In this document: positions 2,019 to 35,629 of the stretch, piece after piece
How the letters are laid out: every line of letters begins with the position of its first letter
Numbering within the stretch: position 1 is the first letter of the stretch
IMG/VR virus record: IMGVR_UViG_3300042902_000149
Span: 1-38,594 of that record
Origin: a virus
Direction: 5' to 3' (one strand)
DNA length: 38,594 bases
Notes under the pieces: model-generated
The model's input: the letters and a program-made list of their open reading frames with translations, nothing else
Told to the model about the DNA's origin: nothing
Databases searched by the model: none
Program-made: the position numbers and the translations under genes

Positions 2019-5000
2019 AACAGAGATAGTAAAATTAGATTCAAATATTCCAAAATGAGCTGAGAAGATAGAAGTTATACATCTTCCACAAGTAGAGATA
2101 CCAAATTACGACTATGGTAATTGACAAGATACACTAGATGCTGAAATTGCTTTAAGGAACAATACGCCATGAACATCTTGATGAAAATTTTATATATGAA
2201 ATTTTACTATAACATGAACTTGAAATTTTGCTATAAGTTGAGTAGGATTTATTCCTAAAATGGTAAAATTTAGCTATAATGCTGCTACTTGACTTTGAGA
2301 TGGTGTGATGACAACAACAGCTCAAAATGCTTATGACCCAAATACATTAACAAGAATTAATACAGACTGTGTATATATTAGAGACTCAGGTTCTACTGTA
2401 ATAGCTAGAGCTCAATATATAAGCATGAACATAGATTGATTTACTGTTAATTGTAGTTTCTATAGTAATAATTTAGTTGTTTGGTATACTTGTTATGGAT
2501 AGCCTTTTTTTAATGGCTATTTTTTTATTTGATTTAACAGGTAAATTGTTTATTATAATACTAATAACCTTAATATAAAAATATGGTACTAAAAGATGTA
2601 AGCACATTAGATGCAGCAAAAGTAAAATCTACACTTGATACATTGGTTTGACAATGAATGACTCAAGCCGAAGCACAAGCAAAAGTCACTTCTACTCTAT
2701 GAGATAGAGGTTTTGATGTCTCACAAAAAGCACCAATTACTCCTGTGCAAGATGTAGCTCCTGAAACTCCTGTAGTTCCTACTGTAACTCCAGCAACTGC
2801 TCCTCAAACTTGAGTAGATGTACCTGTAACTCCTCCACTAAAAACTCCTGAAGTTCCAACTCCTCCAAAACAAACAAATATAACTATTACTCCAACAAAA
2901 ACACCTGAAGCTCCTATAGAACCACAACCTACTGATTTAAAACAAATACAAACAGTAGATGACTGGAAAACACAAACAGGTGGTTGAATGAATAATCTTG
3001 AAAGCTGGGTAGAAAGTAGATATTGAACTACTGCATCTCAAAAAGACTGAGTTTTAACAGCTAATATATGATGAATAGATTATCAATGGACTATTGATGC
3101 TGCTTGAAATCCTATTAAGACAAAATTATGATGAGAAAATGCTTGAGATATATTTAATCAATTAATGGCTTGACAGGAATTACCTGATACAGGTATTAAA
3201 ACTACTCCTGAGTATTCAAAAGCTAAAGCAAGGTATGATATAACTAATAAATATATTTGAATGACTGAAGACCAGTTATTCAATGCTTATGTAAATGGAG
3301 AAATAGGGGCTAATCTTGAGAAAGATTTAATAAATAATCCTGCTCTTGCAATAGCAAAAGAAAAATATAATAAAAAACTTGTTACTGATAATATAAATAA
3401 AGAGAGTTTAACAATGTTAAATGCTTATAATAAAGCAAATAACAAAGATTATACTCCAGCTGAAATAGAAAAAACATCTTTAGAAAAACTTAGTGATAAA
3501 TTTATGACTATGTTTAAAAATATGGGTAAATCTGATACAGATATTGCCTCTTTTAAAGATTATATGGCTTCTAATTATCCTGATTTAGTTAGTAAAACAA
3601 CTGAATTAAATGCACAAAATAAAGCAATTAGAGAATTAGCTGACGAAAGAGATGCTAGACTAGATGAAATTATAAAAGAAAATCCTTGAATCAGTATAAA
3701 TAGAGCAACAATGTTAGCTGCTAGACAAAACAAAGATATAAATGCACAAATTAAATCAATGAGCTATGATATAGCTAATCTTAGTGCTGATATTAATTAT
3801 CAAACTTCAATAGCTGATAAAGAATATGGTAACGAATTAGATAGACAAGCAAGACAAGACCAATTAGCACAAGAACAAAGAGGTTATGCATTTAATTTAT
3901 TATGAACAGCACAAGCTCAAGATTTTGCACAACAACAAGAAGCAGACAGAAGAAAATATGAACAAGATAATAAATGAGTAAGCACTTCAATGATTCAAGT
4001 ATGAGATAAACAACAATTAATTAACTCTCAAACTTGAGAAGTTATTAAGGAATATGATGTAGCTACTGAAGCTGCTTGAACAACAAGTGATTGGTCTAAA
4101 TTAGATGACAATACACTATATAATCAAAGAACTTGAGAAACTAAATCAGTTACTCCTGCTGAAGCTAGTAATTATACAGGATTAGATTTTACTTCTAATA
4201 CAGATTTAATTAATAAATATCCTAATGAAGCAAGTTTTAAAAATAATAATCCAACTTGAATGACTTGGGGAATATCAGAAAATCTAAAAAATAAGTTTAC
4301 TGAAGCAGGTATTAATTATACACAATGAACTCCTAGACCTGCTAATGAATGATGAGCTTATATTAAATTTGCAAGTGTACAAGATTGATTAGATGCTTAT
4401 AAAATAGCACTTACAGAAGCAGGTAGTCAAAATATTAAGAACAGATTAGCTACTTGGGTATGAACACAAGATACTGAATCAAATAATAGATATGCAAATG
4501 ATATAATGTCTGCTGCATGAATACCACAATGAGCTACATTCTCTGACTTAACAGAAGCACAAACTTGAGCTTTAATGTCAGAACAACTTAAAAGAGAAAG
4601 TCCTAATTTCTATAAAGAGTTAGCTAATATTCCTGCTCCTACAAAACCATTAACAGATAAACAATTTACACAATCAAATCAAATAATTACAAGTTTTAAA
4701 TCAGACCCACAAGTTAAAGCATTTGAAAGTGCATACTCACAATGATTATCATTAATATCATCATTAAATAATGATACATGAGCTTGAGATATGGCTTGAG
4801 TATTCCAATTTATGAAAACACTTGACCCACAATCAGTAGTAAGAGAGAGTGAATTTGAATTAGCTGCTAATACTGCATGAGTTGTTGATAAACTATGAAA
4901 TACTTGGGATAAATTACAAGAATGAAGTATATTAACAGATACACAAGCAAGAGCATTTAAACAACTAGCTAAACAATTTATTATTGATAAGGCTACTATA

Positions 5001-8000
5001 TATGATACTAAGTATTCAGATTGAATTAGAAGATTAGACCAACAAGGTATTGATACTAATGTATTTCCTGCTTCAATATCTGACCAAATGAGAGCTACTT
5101 TAGAATCAGATACAAATACTACTATTGATACTACTAAAAGTGATGAAGAATTATTGAAATCTTATTTTGGATAATATATAAAATATGAACTTATTTGATA
5201 CACTTATTGCAAATAAACCTGCTACACAAAATATACAAAGTCCAGTAACTCCTAAACAAGGAGCTACTAACTTTTTTAGTGATGAAAAACAAGTTTATGA
5301 TAGAATGTTAAATGATTGACTAGATGATACAAAAGCTAGAAGTCTAATCACAAAACAAAGACAAAAGATGATATGACAAATAACATCCCAAGAAAAAGAA
5401 GTATTACTAAAAATGCAACAAGATTGATTAGATAGTAAAAAAGCTGTTGAGCTAGTAAGAAAAAATAGATATAATAATTTACCTTTATATAAAAAGGCTG
5501 CTAAGTTTGTATTTGATGCTTGAGTATGAGCTGCTTGATTAGCTACTGAACAAGTCTGAAAAGTATGAGGTTTCTTATGAGCTGAAGAGTTTGAAAGAAA
5601 AGGTATAGAAGCAAGAGATATTGCTAAAAGAACTACTTGAGATAGTATAGGTGCTAAGACATGAGAAACTATCTTATGAGCTTGAGAAATGTTTGCTGTA
5701 TCTCCTACAAAAGTTGCACCAACATTATTTGGTAGGACTTTACAATGAGCTGCTGTATGAGGTGTTATTTGATGAGCTGACCCTATATTAAGTAAATGAA
5801 GTGATGCTACTATATGAGATGTGGCTAAATGAGCTGCTATATGAGGTACTATATGAGCTGTAGCTACTCCTATTATTGAAAAGGCTGTTTTACCTATTAT
5901 AGCTTGAACAGTTGCTAAATGATACTGAGCTGGTAAATTCTGAGTAGAAAAAGCTGTTAAATATTGAACAGCTGCACAAAAAGGTTGATTAGAATGATTA
6001 GAAAAATCTATTGTTAGAGATATTAAATCTCCATTTAAAAGTATTCAATTAGAATGATTAGCTCCACAAAAAGCTGCTGCATTGTCTACTAGAGCAAATA
6101 GATTCACTTCTTGACAAGAAAAGAAATTTAAAGAAATGACTTGAGAAACATCTTGAGAATTTGCAGTTAAAAGAGGTATGACTAAAGTATGAGATGATGC
6201 TGTAGAAGAATCAGCTAAAAACTATTTAGCTTCAATGAAAGAAGCCGATGATGCTTTAAGATTAATAGACTGAAATTATAAAATTACAAAAGGACAAGAT
6301 TTTGCTAAAATAATGCTTGAAGACTTATCTTCAAGACTTAAAAATACATTATGAACTTGAAGTAGAAAAATTGATTTATTATTAAAAAAATATAATACTC
6401 AATGATTAACAATGAGTGAGTTAAATCAAGTTAAAAGAACTTATGCTAATAACTTTAAATACTCATTTACTGAGAAATGAAGTGAAGCAGCCATGAAAAG
6501 TACAAACTTACAAAATGGTATTAGAAAGTTTCAATTTGACACAGCTAAACAACAAGGTTTTAATAACTTAGATAAAATTAATAAAACTACTCAAGCATGG
6601 AGAGCTTATACAGATAATCTAGGACAATCAATGGCTAGAAAATGAGTAAATAATGAAGTAAACTTAACTTCTTGGATAGCTTTATCAGGTTGAGAACCAA
6701 CTAACTTGGCACTATTCTTATGAAAAGAAACACTAGGTCATTCAAAAGTTAAGTGAGCAATTATAAAATGACTTTCAAAACAAACAAAACCGAGTATAAT
6801 AAAAGCAAATAGAACAAGTATCTTAAAATCTAATCTTAAAAAAGAAAATGTGGTTATTGATAATATTCTTCGTGATAGGAGCATTAATAGCTCTAAGTTA
6901 GTTAAGACTACTCCAAAGAAAGTAGTTAAGAAACCAATCATTACAAAAGCTCCTGTAAAAACAGAAAAAGCTATCTCAAATAAAAAGTGATTTATAGCAC
7001 CTAGAAAGATAATAAGTGATGTAAAGAAAGTAATTAAACCTACCAAGAGTGCAGGACTAATAGAAGAAGCTAAAAATTTTAAACAAACTAATTTAGATAG
7101 TTTAATAAAACAAGCTAAAGAAACTTGAAAAATGCCTTTAAATGAAGATATAAGCAAAGGCTTTATAAAACAACCTAGTTTATTACAAAGAAAGGCTGAG
7201 TTAGATAAAATTAAGGATATATTAAAAAAAGAAGCTAATATAAAAGACATTATTCCTAATAAAACATTAAGTGCTATTGAAAAATATACTAAACACCAAT
7301 GAAGAATAAATGCTTATTTAAGAAATCCAAACTGATGACATTTGGAAGATACAATTAAACTTGCAAAAGAAGCAGAGAAACAGTTATTAGAAATGCCTAA
7401 ATATGAATGAATATCATATAGAGGAGTTAAACAATTTTCTTGATTAGATAACTTACAAGTTTGACAAACATTTTCTGATAAATGATTTCTATCTTCTAGT
7501 AAAAGCAAAATTGTAGCAGATAGGTTTGCTGATGATGCCTTATTTATTATAAAAGGTAAAAGAGGTAGGGATTTATCTGATATAAGCAAGATGAAAAGTG
7601 AACAAGAAATATTATTTAAACCTAATTCTAAATTTGATATAATAAATATTGAAACTAAATGAGGTAAAAAAATAATTACACTAGAACAATAAAAAAAGAG
7701 CTTAATTGCTCTTTTTTGCTATACTGCCTAATATTTGAAGTCAATCTAAGACTTGTTTAATAGCTATTTTATTTTCTTTTATTTTCCATTCATCTCATTG
7801 TTTTTTTAATAATTTAGCATTTTCTTTATATTCATAAGAAACTAAATCACATAGTTTTAGATAAGTGTGTAATTCCATAATTATTTAATTAAAATTTAAA
7901 AGTTTTTTGTCCTATCTTTTTATTAAAGGCATATATATAATAAGTAGATTCATTTAATTTATATCATTTTGTAGTAGAGATTTTAATAATTCTTTTAAAT

Positions 8001-11000: not shown

Positions 11001-14000
11001 TTTATACAAACAACTACAGACCAATCAAAGGCTTGAAGTTTAACACTTACAACAAAAGCTTTAAACCAATTCAACGGAGCTAATATAGCTTCAGCAACTA
11101 CAACAGACATCTGAGCTGCTACTTGAAATAGTCCTCATATAACTTGAACTACAACAATAACAGGACTTGGTACAATACAAGCCTGAGTACAAAGAACACT
11201 TACTTTTGATTGAATACTTATATTAACTCATAATGCTACAAGTTTAATCCTACCAACAGGAGCTAATATAACAACTGTTGCTTGAGATACTGCTGATTTT
11301 ATAAGTGAATGAAGTGGTAATTGGAGATGTGTTAATTATCAAAGAAAAGACTGAACTGCTTTAGATGGTATTACAGCAACTTCTACAGATACACTTACAA
11401 ATAAAAGAATCACAGCAAGAGTTAGTACAATCGCTTCTTCAGCTACTCCAACACCTGCTTGAGATACAACAGATGAATTTACTATCACTGCATTAGCTGC
11501 TGCTGCAACATTCGCTGCTCCTACTTGAACTCCTACTGAATGACAAGTATTACTTATTAGAATAAAAGATGATGGAACTGCTAGAGCTTTATCTTGGAAT
11601 GCAATATATAGAGCTAGTACAGATTTAGCTTTACCAACTACAACAGTTATTAGTAAAACATTATATTTACAATTTGTATATAATAATACAGATTCAAAAT
11701 GGGATTTACTAGGTTTACTTGATAACTTCTAATTATGAGATTACCTTTATTCGTATGAACTGGAGTATCTGCTGCTAACTGACTTCTAAATAATCTAGTA
11801 TCATATTACAAATGTGATGTAAATGGTACTTTTTGAGACAGTCATTGAAGCAATACTTGAACAATTAATTGAGCTACATATACAGCTAGTTGAAAGATTA
11901 ATGGAGCTTATAGTTATACTACTAATGATTGGGTTGATGTTCCATTAAATTCTACAACTAATTTTACTAAATCAATGTGGGTAAAAATAACTGCAGATGT
12001 AGTATGACATTTGATGTCTAAATATGATTGAAGTAGTAAAATGGACCAATTATATTATTACTCTGTAGATAAGAAAATATATTCTAATATATGACAGGTA
12101 TGAGGTAATAGAAATACTGTTTCTACTGCTGCAATATCATTAAACACTTATTATCATATAGCTGTAACTCGGGATTGAACTACTCAAAAAATATATCTTA
12201 ATGCTTGAACTCCAGTAACAAGTGCAGCTACTGCTGATAACTTTGTAGATACAGTAAATTTTGATATATGAAGAAGAAATGACCCAGTTAATTATTTAAG
12301 CTGAGTTTTAGATGAAATAGGTTACTGGGATACTGCCTTAACAGCAGATGACATAACAACTTTATATAATTGAAGTTCGTGATTATCTTACGATTCATTT
12401 ACTTCTTAATAAAATCCTTATGCTTAAATATATAACTTGGAGGGCAAAAAAGATTAATGCAAATTTAATTGAACACCCAAATACAAATGATAGAGTTAAT
12501 CTAGAAACAGCTTGAGCTATTACATTTACCGAAACTCCTTATCAAATAGCTGATGGTAGATATATATCATTCTTAGAACACGCTTGAAATATAACACAAG
12601 CTCAATTAGACCATTGGAGAACTCTAGACCCTGCTTTTGAATTTACTATTATAGATGAAACAACTACTAATACACTTTTATCTGAATTATGAGATGTAAC
12701 AGTAACTAATTTTATTTTTACTGATAATAGACCAGTATTAGAACTTTAATTATGAAAACAGATAAACAATCATTATTAAGAGAAAAGAAACTAAGGAAAA
12801 CTCCATATACAGAAATGACTCCTAATGATATTAAGTTCTTAGAAGAACAAGGTATTATAAATGGAGTCTGACCTGAAAGATATGGTAAGTTTCTTAGACT
12901 TTTAATGACTTGGTTGTTTTGTTTTATAGATTATAAAAGGCACGATATAAATTTTTGGCAACAAAACTGATTTTATCAAGCTAACTGGGGACTTCTTAAA
13001 TATTCTTTTATATCAATAGCTGATAATTATAGAGAAATATGTCTTGATAAATGGTATAAAAAGCTATATAGAATCCCTAAATACTATATTACACTACCGT
13101 TTAAAGCCTGGATTATATCACTAGCTTATAACGCTGTAGAATCTGAAAAATGATTAGAGGCTTATAATTCTATAAAATAATTTTACAAATCTCTAAAAAT
13201 AACTATATTTATAATAAAGGATAATCACTAATTTACATTTATGTCGGAAAAAGAATATGTAACACATAAAGACCTTATGAATTTTTACGAAAAAATTTCA
13301 AAAGAAGCTAAAGATGATAGGCATTATGTAGCTAATCAAATACAAAGCTTTATAGCTATTATTGATGGTAAATTTGATGAGCTTAAAGATAATTTTCCAA
13401 ATATAGCAGTTATACAAGAAAAAGTAAAAGAATTATCTTTATGACACAAGGATTTAAAAAAAGATATAGCTCATGTAGAAGTTAGAATAACAAAAAATGA
13501 AAATAAATTACTTGTAGCTGGTACAGTAATATGTATAGTTGGTTCAATAGGTTGATTCTTAGTTCAAATATTTATATCTAAATTTTTATAATGGACACAA
13601 TAAGAGCAAATAAAGTTATATTACTATGTTTACTATGATTAGTAGCCTATTTTTCTATTATATGTACTTGATTATGAGTATATGTTGTAGTTAAAACTGA
13701 GAAAGAAGAGACTCTTTTAAAAGAGATTTCAATTACTCTTAGAGAGATACAATGAGAACCAGTAGAAGTAGAAGTTAATTATTAATAAAATATTATGCCT
13801 ACAATTAAAATAAAAGTACCAAGTAAATTAAAAAGAAAAATAAAACTTGTACCACCATCTAAAAGATATAAATTAAAAGAAGGACAAAAAGTAACTTAAT
13901 TATTATGTCAGATAAAACTTTAATATTAATATGTCAAATAGTATGCGTAATTGTTATACTATGATGTATTTATTTTTTTATAAAAAACTAATGAGATTCA

Positions 14001-17000: not shown

Positions 17001-20000
17001 CTATACAGACCAAGAAACTTACTATGTATTTCTTAAAAATAACTACTATAGAGTTAAATGAGAAATAGAAAAACTATAAAAACTTGCATTATAACAATAT
17101 ATAACTATAATAGATGCACAATATTCCCCTAGAGTAAATCTGAATGGGGAATTTTTTCTTGATTTAAAATATAAATCATTATAATAAACCTGTTAGGCAC
17201 TCTTTCACTGTAGCTAGTGTTAAAGATAGTCTTGATTAGCAAGTAAGTCCCAAGCCCAATGCTAATGACTTCAAGTGAAACTCTTGAAAGGCTAAAATAC
17301 TTATACAATAGTTAGCTACGACTGGTATAAGTAGGGATTATAAAAAAGATAACCACCTTGTGAAATCCAGTATAACAGGGAATATTAGACTCGTAATCAG
17401 ATGCTGGTCTTTTTTATTTATTAAAAGCCAAAGTAACAATAATTAAAAAAAGATTTGCAATAGTTAGAAAAATAAATATACTATAAATACATAAAAACTT
17501 ATATTAACGGTATGAGTAGCAATATTTACACTAAGTGTAAGTTTTTAGCACAATCTACCGTTAATAGATTGTGTTTTTTTGTAATATTTATCTGATGGAT
17601 ATATACAGAAAGATAGATGTAATGCCGTCCTGTGTGAGGCACTTTAAATATACTCACACAGATACTTTAATGAATGAATGTAGTAATTTACCCCATAGTG
17701 GAATCCTAGGAAGAGTTGTTGGTGCAAGTCCGACCAGTAAATTATTACATCTATTTATTAAAATAGTAAAGCTACTCAGAGTTTACTGAGAGGGGATTGA
17801 TAGTATACTGCATTTGCTATCCTTGTATATCCAGCCACCACAGCTTCCTTAATGGTTCAAAAGGCTCATAGGCAATGCAGACTAGCGAACAAACGATATA
17901 CAGAGATGTTTATACCTAGTTAAGTATTGATGTTTTGTAGTAATACAAACAGACAATAAGCTCTTTTAGAGAGTTGATTGGTTATGGCTAATTAAAGATT
18001 GTCTGTCTAGAGTATTTTACTAACAGGGTTTTATATTCTAGGCAGGCTTTACTTACTCACTCACTCAACCTGAGATATTTAATAAGTTACTATAATATGA
18101 TTAAAGAATGATTAATGTTAAGATATAATACTTCTGAATCTGATATATGTTATAGATTAAGAAAAGAACTTGATAACTTATGATATATGGTAAATCAAGA
18201 GGTAAGAGTTTTAACAAAAGAAAAAGAGAATAATTGACATGCAAGAAAGCAAGTTGCTAGATTTGATTTATTTATAAATAGAAAACTAGTAATTGAAGTA
18301 AAAAATAAGTGAAGTGCTAAATGATTAGCAAAACAAGTTAAAAGATATGAAGATATTTGATTTGATGTTATAACTTGTATATGAGATAAACAAATTGAAG
18401 AAACTATAAAAAAAGTACAAGAATACTTTTAGATACCCGTATATTATTTTCCTTTTCCTACACTAACTTAAACTACTATGATTGAAACTATATCTATGAT
18501 TCTATGATTCTTTATACTATCTATATGAAGCTTAGTAATAATATCTTCTCTACTATTATATTTATTTTCAAACTATACCAATATATGATTTGCTATAAAA
18601 ACTTATATTGATTATTTTGATAAACTTAACAAAGAAGATAGAATTATCCTAGCTAAATTAATTAAAAAACTTAAAACTAAATAAACTACTTATGAAAGTA
18701 TTAATAGCTTGTGAAGAAAGTCAAGCAATAACAATAGAAATGAGAAAACTTTGAATTGAAGCTTATAGTTGTGATATTCAAGAATGTAGTTGATGACACC
18801 CCGAGTGGCATATACAATGAGATGCAATAAAAGAAGCATACTCTTGAAAATATGATATGATGATAGCACATCCCCCTTGTACTTATTTATCTAATGCTTG
18901 AGCTAGACATTTATATCCAAAATGAATACTAAATGAAGAAAGATATAAAAAGTGACTAGAGTGGAAAGAGTTTTTTATGAAATTATATAATGCTCCTATT
19001 GATAAAATATGTATAGAAAATCCACTACCTAGTAAGATATATGAATTACCACCTCATAGCCAAGTAATACAACCTTATGAATATTGACACCCATTTAAGA
19101 AAAGAACTCAATTATGGCTTAAAAACTTACCAAATTTAATACCTACTGATATTGTAGATACTAAAGAAAGTACAAAGCAGGTTTGAAACTGGTTTAATAA
19201 ATGATGAAAAGATAGACAAAAGAATAGAAGTAAAACTTTTCCTTGAATAGCAAAAGCAATAGCTGAACAATGGACTTAATTACTTTATTTATTAATATAT
19301 AACTATGAGAATATTTAAAATAACAGCTAGAGAAAATGCTAACTATCATTATAAATGATTAAAGAAAAGAATATATACTTCACTAATTGATTTTAATAAG
19401 TATTGTGTAAATGCTAAAATAGAAAGAGAGTGAACATTATATAGATATAAAGATATTTATGCAGATGTTAAATGTTATGAAAAGATAGAAGATAAATGGA
19501 TTGAAATATATCCTGAAATCTGAAAAGAGTATATTTAATTACTTATCAATTAACCTTATATAGATATGAAATATACATTTAAAGAACATTTAGAAGCATT
19601 AAATAGAACGAGAGATTTTAAAAAGAGATTAAGACTTAAAGATTATCCACTAAATATATATTGAAGATTAAGAAATTTAATACTAGATATATTTTGAAAA
19701 CTTAAATAACCTTTATATTATTAACTAAGCTAATTAAGTTTAGTTTTTTTATTAAAAAGATTTGCAATTGTAGGAAAGCTAAGTATAATAAGTCCGTAAT
19801 TACAACTAATAACCAATAAATATGATACAAAAAGATATAAGAATTCGCTCTAATGAAGAACTTGAAACACAAGTGTTAATATTAAAAGAATACTACTGAG
19901 TTAAAAGTAAAGCATGAGCAATTAAGAAAGCTGTAAGAGATACTGCTATGGTAGCACAACATAAAGATATGGAAATTAAAATAATGACTAAAGATAATAA

Positions 20001-26423: not shown

Positions 26424-26656
26424 CAATAGAACAATTCTTAGAAGAAGAAAAACAAGAAATAGAATTAAGAAAAGAATTAAAACAAAAGATATTAAAACTA
26501 ATAACTAGATATAATCAAAAAGATATAGCTAAACTATTAAAAGTAGATAATAATATAATAACAAGAATAAAAAATAATCATAAATTCAAAATAAGTACAA
26601 TAAAACATTATCTAAAATGAGTTAATGAGATTATAAAACATATAAATAAACTATAA
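26417..26656 (+). CDS. helix-turn-helix protein, 79 aa
   Basis: After a charged helical N-terminus, residues ~35-65 (RYNQKDIAKLLKVDNNIITR, then IKNNHKFKISTIKHYLKG) read as an XRE-type HTH with a good turn. A perfect 16-bp palindrome lies 24 bp after the stop, a natural candidate for its operator. Probably a regulator of the downstream early genes. Confidence 0.65.
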
Positions 26657-26680
26657 TAATATATAAATACCCCCCTATTT

Positions 26681-26696
26681 ACTAGTCTAGACTAGT
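26681..26696. promoter_or_regulatory. perfect 16-bp palindrome, possible operator
   Basis: ACTAGTCTAGACTAGT is its own reverse complement. It lies between the HTH gene and the 96-aa gene, 22 bp before the next ATG, without a T-run, so it suits a dimeric DNA-binding protein better than a terminator. Confidence 0.6.
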
Positions 26697-26718
26697 GTAA
26701 TTAATAAATAAAGAGATT

Positions 26719-27009
26719 ATGAATAAATTAGCAATTTTAAGAATAGAAGAGAATTTTAATCCTATAAGAGGAACTTCTACTAATAAAATAAATGCAGTAG
26801 CCTTTAAATTAGACCCTTTAATAAAAGCTAATTCGATAGTATCAAGTAATCCTGACACAAGGTTTTATAATGACATTAGGGAATTAAAAGATTATGAATG
26901 GCAAAAAATATTAAATACAGAACAAATGGATTATTGGATATGAGAAGATTGAATTACGCACTGGAATATAAGAGATGAAGAAGGATATTGTACTAATAAT
27001 TATGAATAG
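26719..27009 (+). CDS. hypothetical protein, 96 aa
   Basis: Alpha/beta protein beginning NKLAILRIEENFNPIRGTS; near the end DYWIGEDGITHWNIRDEEG. Two TGA glycines near the C-terminus extend it past the standard-code stop at 26941. No family recognised. Confidence 0.6.
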
Positions 27010-28473: not shown

Positions 28474-28513
28474 TACACTTAATAAATAACTTATAAACTA
28501 ATACAATATAAGA

Positions 28514-28723
28514 ATGAAACAAAAACTAATAGAAATATCTCCTGATAATACTAAGACAGGATATGAATGTCAGAAAGTATGAACTAATGAATGGGAAAAG
28601 ATAAAGCATATATGTTTAATAAAAGATAAGTGTGGAGAGCAAGTACATAATATACTCCTAAAAAATATGCACTATATTTGAGAGTGTGAATGACAATGTT
28701 TATTTGACAAAGAAACCTACTAA
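28514..28723 (+). CDS. hypothetical cysteine-containing protein, 69 aa
   Basis: Five cysteines spread through the sequence (YECQKVG, HICLIKDKCGE, GECEGQCLFD), with possible metal binding in the last Cys-x-x-x-Cys. Alpha/beta. Not recognised. Confidence 0.55.
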
Positions 28724-28763
28724 CAAGTAATAAGTTAGTAATATAATTTAATAAAAGAGAATT

Positions 28764-29039
28764 ATGAAAAATGTAATAGTATTTGATGATGAAATATTTA
28801 ATGCTTTTAGTTCATTTAAAAGAGAAATTGAATTAGAAGAAAGCAATTCACACGATGACTTAAAAGTTTCTATGATGTATTGAATGAGAGTTTTTGATTG
28901 AAGAAGAAAAGAAAATAAATTTATTAGATATATGTTTAATAAAAATAAAAGAATTCAAAAAAAATGGGATAAAATATTTAATGATAGAACTAAGGAAATA
29001 ACTGTTTATCCTTGAATTATGCATTGATTAGCAGTTTAA
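28764..29039 (+). CDS. hypothetical basic protein, 91 aa
   Basis: Acidic N-terminal half, strongly basic second half (FIRYMFNKNKRIQKKWDKIF) and a hydrophobic end (VYPGIMHGLAV). Four TGA glycines. A hairpin CACATA/TATGTG at 29050-29068 follows, without a T-run. Function unknown. Confidence 0.55.
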
Positions 29040-29099
29040 TAAAACACTTCACATATACTTAGTATGTGTACTATAATATAACTTATTAAAATAAAACCT

Positions 29100-29489
29100 A
29101 TGAGAGAAATAAAATTTGAAATATATGATAAAAATAAACAAAAATTTATATCATTTGAAGAGTATAAAGAATTATGAACTATACACTTAGAAAATGATTG
29201 AACTATAAGTTTTAGTAGTGATTATCTATTTACTAATAATATGATGATACAAAAAGATGTATTTATATTATGTCAATATATCTGAATGAAAGATAGAAAC
29301 AAAAAAGATGTAAAAAATTGAGATATTATTAATGAGTATGAAGATGATGAATTATTATGAACTTATGTAATAGAATATAAAGATAATTGATATTGGCCAA
29401 AATGAAGAGATAATGAATATTGATTTAGTGAAGATAATGAATTTGAAATTATCGGTAATATATATGAAAATCCTAACCTATTAAAATAA
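29100..29489 (+). CDS. yopX: YopX family protein, 129 aa
   Basis: Starts REIKFEIYDKNKQKF and contains LCQYIGMKDRNKKDVKNGDI (the family's [20 protein letters not shown]), then the strand VIEYKDNGYWP and the typical end FEIIGNIYENPNLL. Complete length. YopX proteins are common in phages of many hosts; their function is not established, though the fold suggests nucleic-acid or protein binding. Confidence 0.85.
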
Positions 29490-29494
29490 AACCT

Positions 29495-29749
29495 ATGAAT
29501 AAAAAAACTAGCATAATAGCATATGTAAGAAATGATTGACTAATTGATGAAGCCCAAGCAAATGACCTCCCTCCAGCTTGTATTCAAATATCAGAAATAA
29601 AAAGACTTGTATCAGTACTTATGACTATGGAAGAGAGAGAACTTTATAGTAGTAAACATTGACTAGATAAAACATTATATCTAAGAGATTTAACTAAAAA
29701 AGCTATACAAACTCATTGATGAGAAATAAATAAAATTATTTGTAATTAA
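29495..29749 (+). CDS. hypothetical protein, 84 aa
   Basis: Helical second half (ISEIKRLVSVLMTMEERELY). Ends directly in the promoter of the small RNA at 29774, whose -35 overlaps the last codons. Not recognised. Confidence 0.55.
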
Positions 29750-29767
29750 TATAAATATAAGTATAAT
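29740..29767 (+). promoter_or_regulatory. promoter of the ~79-nt small RNA
   Basis: TTGTAA at 29740-29745, 16-bp spacer, TATAAT at 29762-29767. Expected start about 29774, exactly where the first helix begins. Confidence 0.75.
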
Positions 29768-29773
29768 ATCCAT

Positions 29774-29852
29774 GGAATTGCTTAAAAAGTTTGGATATTT
29801 TAAGAAGATTATAAAAGGTGCAATTCCAAACTTGCCTTTTGTAGTCTTTTTT
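29774..29852 (+). ncRNA. ~79-nt small RNA whose terminator loop pairs with its 5' part
   Basis: The 3' end is a 17-bp terminator stem (29802-29818 with 29835-29851, three G-U pairs) running into T. Its 16-base loop carries GCAATTCC (29820-29827) and, overlapping it, CCAAACTT (29826-29833). The RNA's 5' part holds both complements: GGAATTGC (29774-29781) and AAGTTTGG (29787-29794). The two 5' segments are in an order that makes the pairings cross or exclude each other, so the RNA may be pseudoknotted, switch, or pair between molecules. No frame fits. It lies directly before an HNH gene, which it may insulate or regulate. Confidence 0.75.
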
Positions 29853-29864
29853 AAGTAGGAAATT

Positions 29865-30464
29865 ATGCGTAAAAAGTTAATTATAAACAAAGGAGATAAA
29901 TATAGGAGATTAACTATTATAAAAGAAATTATTAATAAAGGTAGAAGAAAGTTTCTATGTAAATGTGATTGTTGAAATATTAAAACAATAAAACTTGAAA
30001 ATATAAGAAGTTGAATAAGTAATAGTTGCTGATGTTATAAAAAGGAGATAACTATAATTGCTAATACAACACATTGAATGTATTGAACAAAAATATATTG
30101 AGTATATGCTTGAATAAAAAGAAGATGTGAAAACAAAAATGTAAAAAATTATAATAGATACTGATGACGTTGAATTAAATGTGAATGGAATAGTTTTGAA
30201 GAATTTTACAAAGATATGTGAGATTCTTACGAAGAATGACTTACAATAGATAGAATAAACAATAATTGAAATTACTATAAAGAAAATTGCAGATGGGCAA
30301 CTTATAAAGAACAAGCTAGAAATACTAGAAAAACATTATTTTATAAATGAAGAGCTGTTAGAGAATGGTGCGAAGAACTAGGATTAAATTTTTCAACATT
30401 TTATACAAGAAAGAATGTACAATGATTATCAATAGAAGAATCTTTATTTTATAATAGATTTTAA
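29865..30464 (+). CDS. HNH-type homing endonuclease with N-terminal zinc finger, 199 aa
   Basis: Residues ~25-60 carry a Cys-x-Cys-x-Cys and Cys-x-Cys cluster (FLCKCDCGN, NSCGCYKKE), the zinc finger usual in this group. The core reads RYGGRGIKCEWNSFEEFYKD, then LTIDRINNNGNYYKENCRWA and TYKEQARNTR, the well-known phage endonuclease pattern (YGGRGI, DRIDNNGxYxxxNCRW). The C-terminal ~45 residues look like a DNA-binding HTH (AVREWCEELGLNFSTFYTRK). A mobile endonuclease is likely. It stands alone, 12 bp after the small RNA terminator. Confidence 0.75.
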
Positions 30465-30509
30465 TCCCCCCCCTAATAGATAATAACCTATAAAAAAAGA
30501 TGAGAGAAA

Positions 30510-30686
30510 ATGAATATAGAACATATAAACTTATTAACTCCTAAAGAGCAAGAAACACTAGAACAATTACATATAGATAAACACAACCTAAAATTAACTA
30601 AAGAAGAAATAGAAAAAATAAATACTAAAATAATTGATTTGCAAGAATTAATGAAAGCAAGACTATTTAATTTAACTAATATTTAA
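30510..30686 (+). CDS. hypothetical coiled-coil protein, 58 aa
   Basis: Leu/Lys/Glu helical repeat (TLEQLHIDKHNLKLTKEEIE). A competing overlapping start at 30500 in another frame gives only 14 codons. Function unknown. Confidence 0.5.
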   Translation: MNIEHINLLTPKEQETLEQLHIDKHNLKLTKEEIEKINTKIIDLQELMKARLFNLTNI

Positions 30687-30697
30687 CCTAAACTACT

Positions 30698-30877
30698 ATG
30701 ACTTATAAGTTACTAAAAGATATTAAGTGAGTGAAAGCTTGAACAGAGTTTTGATATGACCAGTGAGTAGTTTTACCTATATGAATATCTATGTTCTCAG
30801 AAGAGGCTAAAAATATTACATGCTTAATTGAGAGTTTATGAATAGATAATACTGAATATTTTAAAACTAATACTTAA
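30698..30877 (+). CDS. hypothetical protein, 59 aa
   Basis: Small alpha/beta protein with seven TGA glycines (VKAGTEFGYDQGVVLPIG), which argues for real coding. No family recognised. Confidence 0.55.
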
Positions 30878-30888
30878 CCAAAGATACT

Positions 30889-31113
30889 ATGAAGAAACTA
30901 TTAGATACTTTTTGAGATTTTAAATATGATATATTTACAACAGATGCAATTAAATGACAAACTGATTATAGTTATGATGAAAGAATGGGAGAAATATTAT
31001 ATGTAAAAAAATATAATTGAAAACTTGATTACGAAACTACTAATGAGTATATTACATTAAAAGAATCTCCTAAAAGGAAATTTAAACTTAGTATTGTTAC
31101 TAAGATTAAATAA
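30889..31113 (+). CDS. hypothetical protein, 74 aa
   Basis: Mixed alpha/beta, Lys- and Tyr-rich, ending beta-like (KFKLSIVTKIK). Last gene before the packaging promoter. Not recognised. Confidence 0.55.
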
Positions 31114-31115
31114 AC

Positions 31116-31143
31116 TTGTAATATAAACTTATATAATTATAAT
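31116..31143 (+). promoter_or_regulatory. promoter of the packaging and head operon
   Basis: TTGTAA at 31116-31121, 16-bp spacer, TATAAT at 31138-31143; the terminase small subunit starts 24 bp later. The same -35 as the small RNA promoter at 29740. Confidence 0.75.
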
Positions 31144-31166
31144 AGATACATATTAACTATAAAAAA

Positions 31167-31568
31167 ATGATTGAATCAAAGACAGTAAGAAAGGATAAAT
31201 TAAAGAATAAAGCTAAGATAATTAAGGCTGTTTTAAATAGTCCTTTAGATACTCAAGATAAGATAGCTAAAACGGCTTGAGTTAATAAATCAACTGTTTC
31301 AAGGCAACTAAACGAAATGCAACAAACTGCAACAAAAGACGATAGAATCCTTTGATTAACGGATAAAGACTTTGAATTGATGACTAAAATTCAAGAAGAA
31401 AAGTTAAGAAGAATGAATGAAGAATGAAAAGAATTAAACAATGCAGATATTGATAAATGGGACAATACATCTTCAAAAAGATATAGTTTATTTAGATGAG
31501 ATGCAACTGATAAAGATTGAGGAATGAAAAGACCTGATGTAATATTTGAAATTGTTAATCCTGAATAA
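31167..31568 (+). CDS. terS: terminase small subunit (HTH), 133 aa
   Basis: Residues ~12-50 are a helix-turn-helix (KAKIIKAVLNSPLDTQDKIA then GVNKSTVSRQLNEM), as expected for the DNA-recognising part of small terminases. A helical middle region for oligomerisation (FELMTKIQEEKLRRMNEE) and a Gly/Asp-rich end follow. It stands 1 bp before the large terminase and just behind a promoter. It would recognise the packaging site and load the motor. Identity rests on HTH plus position. Confidence 0.75.
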
Positions 31569-31569
31569 T

Positions 31570-33081
31570 ATGTCTGAAATTAAAAGAATTAAAGTTAAGC
31601 CAACAAAGAAGCAATTTAAAGCACTTATGTTATTATTAAAAGATAACTTAGTGTCTTTTTTGTGATATGGTTGAGCTGCTTGATGATGAAAAACAATACT
31701 TGCTGCTATATGGATTGCTATGATGTGTTCAAAATATCCTTGAGTTAGATATTGAGTATTCAGAAGATATATAACAGATGCTTTAGATACTACATTTACA
31801 TCATTTACTAAGGCTTTAATTATTATATGATTAAAAGAAGCATCTACAATGGCTGAGTTAATGAAGCCTTGAAGTGATTATGATTATGTAGTAACAAACT
31901 GATGAAAAGAAATAAAGTTTTGGAATGGTTCTGAAATATGGTTTAGATGATTACAAGATAAACCCACAGATGTTCATTTTACAAAGATAGGTTGATTAGA
32001 ATTAACTTGAGCTTTTGTAGATGAAGCAAATGAATGTCCTGAGTTATGAATACTTACTCTTAAAAAGAGAGTATGAAGACACATGAATATAGAACATAAT
32101 ATACCTAGAAAGGTTTTATGTACTTTTAATCCTGATAAATGATGGGTTTATAGAACATTTTACTTACCATATAAGAATGAAAAGGAAATAAATGATGTTA
32201 AATTTATTCCAGCTCTTCCAACAGATAATCCATATTTATCTGAAGAATATATAGAGGAATTAAGGAATGAAACTAATGAAGTATTAAGACAAAGATATTT
32301 TTATGGTAATTTTGATTATGATGATACTCCTTGAAGATTATTTGAATATGATAAGATAATTGCATTATCTAAGACTAAAACACCATATAATAATATTAAA
32401 TATATTTCTTGTGATGCTGCTAGAAAATGAAAAGATAAATGTGTTATAATGGTTTGGGAGTGATTTAATATGATTGATATAACTGTATTTGATAAATGTG
32501 AAATACCTGAAATATCAAAAGAAATCAGGAGACTACAAGAAAAACATTGAGTAGATAATCAGAATACAATAGTAGATGAAGATTGAGTTTGAGGTTGAGT
32601 AGTTGATGAATTATGATGTTTATGATTTGTAAATAATAGTTCTGCAATATCTCCATACTGAGCTAAGAATAATAACTACTTAAAAAGAAACTATGTTAAT
32701 CTAAAAACACAATGTTATTTTGAATTAGCAAAAGTAGTAAATGATAATATAATGACTGTAAATTTAGATGTAAAAGCATTTAATCTATTATCAGAAGAAT
32801 TAGATATAATAGTTCAAATAGACTTAGAAAAAGATAGTAAAATAAGAATAATAAGTAAAGATAAAATAAAAGAAAAACTTTGAAGAAGTCCTGATTACTC
32901 AGATACTCTAATGATGAGATGTTACTTTAACTTAGTATATTGAGGAATACAATATGAAGATGAGGAGATAGAAGAAAATAATACAAGGCAAGTAATATAT
33001 GATATAGAATGAGTAGATTCACTTGATGATATTATGAATATGGAAGAGAATAATGAATTAGATGATGTTTCAATAATATAA
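31570..33081 (+). CDS. terL: terminase large subunit, 503 aa
   Basis: Packaging motor ATPase and nuclease. Walker A GGAAGGGKT is at residues 34-42; Gly35, 38, 39 and 40 are TGA codons, so the motif exists only with TGA read as Gly. Walker B is GAFVDEANE with Asp151-Glu152. The coupling segment KVLCTFNPDKG follows. The RNase H-like nuclease begins ISCDAARKGKDKCVI (first Asp), with IVDEDGVGGGV (second) and SPDYSDTLMM (third). Length is normal. It works with the small subunit and portal at the head. It uses TGA for most of its glycines, unlike the capsid gene. Confidence 0.95.
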
Positions 33082-35056: not shown

Positions 35057-35554
35057 ATGGAAATAAAAGATAAAAACCTATTCGTTTCTGAATATGCACA
35101 ATTATTAAAAGATAAATGATATATAGAGTTACTTGAAAAATATAATAAAGATATTGATAATAGAAGAAAACAAGTATTTGCAATGTACACATCTATTGAA
35201 TGAGGACATTTAACAGAGAATCAAATTTATAATGAAAAAAATGCAGCAGTAGAAATATTATCAATTTTACTAGATGCTAAAGAGGATTTTGAAAAAATAC
35301 AATTAACATGAACTAAATATATATTAGAAGAATTAGAAGAATTAATTAAATGACATGCTAAAATGATACAAGAAAATATTGGTTGATTAAGTTCTTGATT
35401 AACTATGTCTGTATATACTGAAACTGATATAATTTTAAAATGAGTATCTGCTTTAGAAAGTGTTGTTACATGTTATGAAAAAGAATTAGAAAACTGTAAA
35501 AAAGTAGAACAAGATGATTCTACAACAACAGAGGTAGAAGAAGATAATTCGTAA
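35057..35554 (+). CDS. hypothetical head-region protein, 165 aa
   Basis: Helical, acidic at the end (DDSTTTEVEEDNS), with segments EILSILLDAKEDFEKIQLTG and ESVVTCYEKELENCKK. Lies between portal and scaffold, a place often held by a minor head or assembly protein. No family recognised. Confidence 0.6.
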
Positions 35555-35579
35555 ATTACTATTACTCCTTAGAAATAGG

Positions 35580-35629
35580 GGGTAAAATGTAGTTTGAGAA
35601 TACTATACAAAATTCTTTATATTTTACCT
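35580..35629 (+). promoter_or_regulatory. leader hairpin before scaffold and capsid genes
   Basis: GGTAAAAT and ATTTTACC form a perfect eight-pair stem enclosing an AT-rich loop, in the ~95-bp gap before the scaffold ATG. There is no T-run directly after it, so it is more likely an mRNA-processing or stability element than a terminator. Confidence 0.5.

Follow-up and report, generated by a model that had tools for sequence, protein, structure and literature searches.

A folded RNA in a code 25 phage is probably the 5' leader of an HNH endonuclease mRNA

We analyzed a complete stretch of viral DNA of 38,594 nucleotides (IMG/VR record IMGVR_UViG_3300042902_000149, hereafter the window) and found that positions 29774-29852 are probably the folded front end of an HNH endonuclease mRNA. 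A preliminary description of this DNA had proposed an independent small RNA at this locus; that proposal was not supported, as the HNH start codon lies 12 bases beyond the end of the RNA and its counterparts in other phages lead endonuclease genes. On balance, we read the locus as an mRNA leader that belongs to a mobile, free-standing HNH homing endonuclease and whose pseudoknot would act in cis to limit or time expression. Within this reading, position and recurrence give good support to a leader acting in cis.

A 127-bp terminal repeat marks the window as a complete phage genome. Because code 11 yields short frames only, whereas code 25 (TGA = Gly) yields a full gene set, we read it in code 25, which Gracilibacteria and Absconditabacteria use, as do some of the phages that infect them (PMC10746230). 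Searches with the terminase, the lysozyme, and an 84-aa protein recovered a single related phage, IMGVR_UViG_3300042534_000516 (45,095 bp; hereafter G001). The leader locus is a 115-base gap between the gene for the 84-aa protein and a 199-aa gene, with the following features:

29495-29749, + strand: 84-aa gene upstream of the cassette, 88% identical in G001
29740-29767, + strand: sigma-70-like promoter, TTGTAA (29740-29745), 16 bp, TATAAT (29762-29767); 10/12 consensus; expected transcription start at ~29774
29773-29781, + strand: 5' segment A, TGGAATTGC, exact complement of loop segment 29820-29828
29787-29795, + strand: 5' segment B, AAGTTTGGA, exact complement of loop segment 29825-29833
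29802-29818, + strand: 5' arm of stem S, AAGAAGATTATAAAAGG; 17-19 pairs counted
29819-29834, + strand: loop of 16 bases, TGCAATTCCAAACTTG, holding A' and B'
29820-29828, + strand: loop segment A', GCAATTCCA, 9-base exact complement of segment A
29825-29833, + strand: loop segment B', TCCAAACTT, 9-base exact complement of segment B
29835-29852, + strand: 3' arm of stem S (S'), CCTTTTGTAGTCTTTTTT, with six T at its end (terminator-like, A/U-rich)
29857-29860, + strand: AGGA, possible Shine-Dalgarno sequence read from the letters, 4 bases 5' of the ATG
29865-30464, + strand: free-standing HNH endonuclease gene, 199 aa in code 25 (PHROG 374 HNH endonuclease, E 9.6e-57)

The design first described for this RNA, namely, a 16-base loop with two overlapping segments that each have an exact complement in the 5' part, was confirmed, at 9 bases for each segment. 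The pairings also exclude or cross one another as claimed: A' and B' share the overlap TCC, and A:A' and B:B' each cross stem S. An 8-base complement to the loop occurs in 15 of 5,481 other 28-mers of the genome (0.27%), and shuffles of the 5' part in which the complementary composition was kept gave one 8-base match in 4.6% and two or more 8-mers in 1.6% of cases. The hairpin of stem S is the strongest on the + strand of the window, and the whole leader RNA has a minimum free energy of -18.5 kcal/mol (z -2.1). Segment A begins (29773) approximately where transcription is predicted to start. The promoter-like site carries little weight by itself, because shuffled sequence of this AT-rich DNA has about as many such sites (31 found in the window versus 27.8 expected). 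Of the promoter-terminator unit that had been described, the promoter-like site was present, and the other half is terminator-like at most: stem S, rich in A/U, contains 3 G-C pairs and closes a loop of 16 bases, its U-run belongs to the 3' arm, and a terminator scan of 28500-31500 found none.

The 199-aa HNH protein has relatives in 982 INPHARED records, and a related HNH gene was found in 2 of 395 Bacteroidota genomes; its family suggests that it is a homing endonuclease. In G001, homology ends at the stop codon of the 84-aa gene and a different gene comes next, with the RNA and the HNH gene both missing. The HNH gene is therefore present in one and absent from the other of two close relatives, as expected of a free-standing cassette, and since the RNA is missing with it beside a gene that is 88% identical, the two look like one inserted cassette of which the RNA is apparently the 5' leader. 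A cis-acting 5' UTR is also the simpler reading, because the locus is flanked by a promoter-like site and the HNH start codon, and its counterparts are endonuclease leaders. Separately, G001 contains at 40240-40990 a NUMOD4-HNH cassette inserted in a gene close to its 3' end; the apparent original gene end, EEKELLQLLLKLK, remains behind this cassette, and a similar end stands in front of it.

An exact search for the loop in IMG/VR returned 7 chance matches, all within unrelated sequence, and no homologue of the window leader sequence. We describe its recurrence by topology, i.e., a 5' segment A, a stem arm S, the complement A' of that segment in the loop, and the stem arm S' (A-S-A'-S'). The window leader itself combines an exact complement between 5' segment and loop, a strong stem near the start codon, and a promoter-like site upstream. 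A first scan covered 2.46 Mb (both strands) of loci retrieved through protein similarity. Its top scores, G+C-rich coding sequence aside, were HNH leaders: those of the window, G001 40247-40342 (which precedes a NUMOD4-type HNH gene), L010, and L064. The leaders L152 and L133 joined this group in later steps, and neither has DNA-level relatives in named phages. A score of -28 was reached by 5 of 32 HNH-like leaders versus 2 of 234 other gap leaders (n = 266; Fisher p = 3e-4), and the latter two were both G001 leaders, one ahead of the gene for a DnaD-like helicase loader (26988), the other ahead of a scaffold-like gene (12347). The scan also scored L057/L058 and L031/L134, which we rejected because they fold as nested hairpins.

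Across six whole genomes (the window, G001, and G002-G005), 13 matches scored -28 or better in 475 kb of real sequence versus 1 in 950 kb after shuffling, and 12 versus 0 scored -30 or better; these counts include some single sites read on both strands, the thresholds were fixed after the first examples had been seen, with the shuffled controls held to the same thresholds, and G002-G005 (4/6 genomes) were selected for already holding one such leader. Two endonuclease leaders lie outside that selection, i.e., G002 29990-30065 (minus strand) and G005 30601-30665, the latter preceding an HNH gene from a different subfamily. The A-S-A'-S' leaders of HNH genes number eight in these six genomes, with unrelated sequences apart from one homologous pair (G002 29990-30065 and G003):

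Window 29774-29852
G001 40247-40342
G002 3608-3686
G002 29990-30065, minus strand
G003 35510-35581
G004, leader of the L010 gene
G005 5390-5459
G005 30601-30665

The motif precedes all eight HNH genes of the six genomes that have their own gap and a cassette-like position; it is absent from HNH genes inside operons and from a conserved 88-aa HNH gene and its G001 relative. With the same segment order in six phage genomes, far above chance and in unrelated sequences, the suggestion of an RNA class defined by architecture gained support. Because most HNH leaders examined in named phages (Staphylococcus, Butyrivibrio, Erwinia, Acinetobacter, Bacteroides, crAss-like, Lactobacillus, Aeromonas, and Vibrio) do not have such a pseudoknot, A-S-A'-S' appears to be one solution among several. 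Nor is the architecture specific to endonucleases, since leaders of the same topology precede the scaffold-like gene (12246-12309) and the DnaD-like helicase loader gene (26885-26967) of G001 (loci L274-L276). A further non-endonuclease case is G005 32015-32084 (locus L304), a very strong match (-48.9) with a possible replication-initiator gene ~150 bases downstream.

Covariation between two related leaders supports the A:A' and S:S' pairings. The leaders G002 29990-30065 (minus strand) and G003 35510-35581 are homologous, with 63 of 92 columns identical and the U-run in register. Segment A and its complement read GTGGTAG/CTACCAC in one leader and GTGATGG/CCATCAC in the other, which amounts to two double compensatory changes; stem S reads CCCTCTTT/AAAGGGGG in one and CCCTTAGA/TCTAAGGG in the other, with four double changes and one one-sided change, a count that needs one gap moved at no extra gap column. 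Collectively, none of the 15 pairs is broken, and six double compensatory changes are spread over both helices, so that the pairing of the loop with the 5' part is kept in this pair, the single one from which covariation was drawn. On the MAFFT alignment, 2 of 7 A:A' pairs changed on both sides and 100% remained paired, versus 21-86% in slid controls; the shuffle control reached 117/500, a comparison that has little power with two sequences.

The window had been said to hold two RNAs of the same design and unrelated sequence, and the other one can indeed be counted:

17455-17482, + strand: promoter-like TTGCAA-16-TATACT of the other RNA, read from the sequence
17493-17581, + strand: the other RNA, with an outer hairpin AAAAACTTA/TAAGTTTTT enclosing TATTAACGGTA (17502-17512)

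Its terminator hairpin (17547-17575) has a loop, TACCGTTAATA (17556-17566), that pairs with TATTAACGGTA. Homology with G001 stops in the promoter spacer (window 17465), and at the matching position G001 has at 26885-26967 an unrelated sequence of the same topology, in which a segment of an upstream hairpin pairs with the loop of the terminator hairpin. INPHARED gave no DNA match to the region of this RNA. Two neighboring stretches are worth recording in their own right. Window 17130-17415 holds ~250 bases of non-coding, structured-looking DNA with its own promoter-like site and terminator, ~93% conserved in G001 (26450-26760) and without an Rfam match; it looks like a separate phage RNA. Window 17580-18090 comprises ~500 bases in which no gene is convincing; it contains long helices, and GTAGTAATTTAC/GTAAATTATTAC close a T-loop-like element, GTTGGTGCAAGTCCGACC. 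It gave no nucleotide match in G001 and no Rfam match.

How the leader might act was approached by folding. In prefix folding, A:A' was dominant once A' had just been made in 7 of 8 leaders (probability 0.81-0.99), and every HNH leader tested lay at 0.81-0.96 at this point. Once the 3' arm was made, S:S' displaced A:A', at least partly, in a nested model that does not score the full pseudoknot. Because the two helices cross, A:A' and S:S' can coexist as a pseudoknot where the A-S linker allows, which is 20 bases long in the window and ~29 in G002 and G003. There is no linker in G004 (L010) and G005 5390, and the full stem and A:A' could therefore hardly coexist there; a single common three-dimensional fold for all leaders is thus doubtful. 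The mean unpaired probability around the start site of the window was 0.37 when folded freely versus 0.49 with A:A' forced, and in nested folding the two states showed no consistent difference in start-site accessibility across leaders. We rejected a simple translational switch on account of this inconsistent opening and closing.

Under the cis-acting leader reading, transcription would start at ~29774 from the cassette's own promoter-like site, segment A of the growing transcript would pair first with A', stem S would take over as its 3' arm emerges, and the crossing of A:A' and S:S' would form a pseudoknot given enough linker. The structure may then keep endonuclease expression low or timed in cis, and lower or later expression is the most likely effect. 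Part of the transcripts might terminate or slow at the U-run, ribosome entry might be hindered beside the start codon, or the 5' end might bind a protein or be stabilized; we would rank attenuation or translational damping above mRNA stability and the latter above protein binding.

One specific form of this explanation, a transcription attenuator proper, is conceivable though we would not bet on it. Stem S and the U-run would be the terminator, A:A' (and B:B') a transient competitor that delays it, and the read-through fraction would be set by folding speed or by a binder of A. Such an attenuator is in keeping with A:A' preceding S:S' in prefix folding, with the U-run closing S' in the window, G001 (40342), G002 (30065, minus strand), and G003 (35581), and with the zero linker in G004 and G005, which implies competition, but G002 3608 and G001 12246 have no U-run and the stem is A/U-rich. 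Unlikely, in our judgment, is a separate small RNA, terminated after ~79 bases and acting in trans, with the HNH gene merely lying downstream. It could draw on the promoter-like site and the stem with six terminal T, as well as on the other window RNA and G001 26885-26967, which end in U-runs and resemble promoter-terminator units. However, the stem ends 12 bases from a start codon, counterparts stand before HNH genes in six genomes, several counterparts (G002 3608 and G001 12246) are missing the U-run, and the A/U-rich stem with its large loop was not called in the terminator scan.

Chance complementarity beside an ordinary weak terminator and promoter is improbable and already disfavored: AT-rich DNA does give many promoter-like sites and hairpins, and 1.6-4.6% of composition-matched shuffles contain 8-base matches, but recurrence and enrichment in whole genomes, the compensatory changes of G002/G003, and the RNA of like topology that replaces the other RNA at the orthologous position in G001 all speak against it. 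More improbable still is a DNA-level element, i.e., cassette-end repeats for homing or replication or an endonuclease operator, for although the leader begins at the edge of the inserted segment and I-TevI binds an operator that overlaps its own promoter (PMC2988022), the A-S-A'-S' order, crossing helices, and covariation fit RNA pairing better than a protein site, the sequence differs among cassettes, and the same layout precedes non-endonuclease genes.

We compared the leader, read as cis-acting, with known systems. Endonuclease genes in relatives of T4 are often under the control of RNA structure at the start site, as in the RBS-sequestering hairpins of I-TevI, SegB, and Aeh1 MobE (PMC2988022). 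What the window leader has in common with these is RNA structure where an endonuclease gene begins, thought to limit or time expression. T4-type hairpins mask the RBS in long transcripts only, and a late promoter removes the hairpin (PMC2988022), whereas the window leader has its promoter-like site upstream of the whole structure, which sets it outside the T4-type RBS-sequestering design, does not clearly mask the RBS, and adds a loop-to-5' pseudoknot. Closer to the T4 type is L098 455-558 (Butyrivibrio phage Ceridwen), where the HNH gene follows a long hairpin that takes in the Shine-Dalgarno region and carries TATAAT in its 5' arm. The seg43 leader of Aeromonas phage 25 places a very stable hairpin of unknown function just 5' of the unsequestered RBS of an endonuclease gene (PMC2988022), but it is a plain hairpin, and its sequence as read here has no loop-to-5' complement. 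The pseudoknot in the leader of T4 gene 32 likewise sits in a phage mRNA, but is short, gp32-bound, and autoregulatory, and precedes the gene for an ssDNA-binding protein with no endonuclease cassette (PMC3014915). In hok, H. pylori aapA3, and the MS2 leader, a transient pairing also forms first and a stable one follows as the RNA grows, but their targets are the Shine-Dalgarno sites of toxin or maturation genes (PMC6733600), and no consistent start-site effect is predicted for the window leader.

The int-alpA RNA (RF02996) is likewise a structured leader, found also before phage HNH genes, with a hairpin loop open to long-range pairing; in contrast to the window RNA, it has a conserved sequence and outer stem, and the RF02996 model gave no match to 29740-29870 at E up to 2. 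An int-alpA RNA lies directly before a phage HNH gene at L281 408-474 (Dulem virus 33; 46.2 bits, above the covariance-model cut-off of 35.8 bits). L041 496-568, also before a phage HNH gene, scored 28.4 bits, below that cut-off; it had at first been grouped with the A-S-A'-S' leaders and was then removed as int-alpA-like. Rfam gave nothing beyond chance for the leaders of the window, G001 40247, G002, G003, G004, and G005, and no Rfam ribozyme model, HDV-like or other known self-cleaving type, matched in the window or the leaders scanned. In the literature covered, which leaves out most subscription papers, we found no description of leaders of this kind ahead of endonuclease genes. By the tests made, the window RNA is none of the known systems compared.

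Homing endonucleases must be expressed in a way that spares the host phage, and to our knowledge, the expression control of endonuclease cassettes outside the T4 group is largely unknown. The recurring layout before HNH genes suggests an undescribed way of controlling these selfish genes. More tentatively, we postulate a class of phage leaders defined by topology only (A-S-A'-S' with crossing helices), equipped with their own promoters and found in selfish endonuclease cassettes and some phage operons, whose sequence evolves too fast for sequence models and which may serve as a co-transcriptional brake or timer. If this is true, selfish genes would possess a portable control element, recognizable by topology alone and placed before several HNH subfamilies, and sequence-based RNA surveys would overlook a kind of structured leader.
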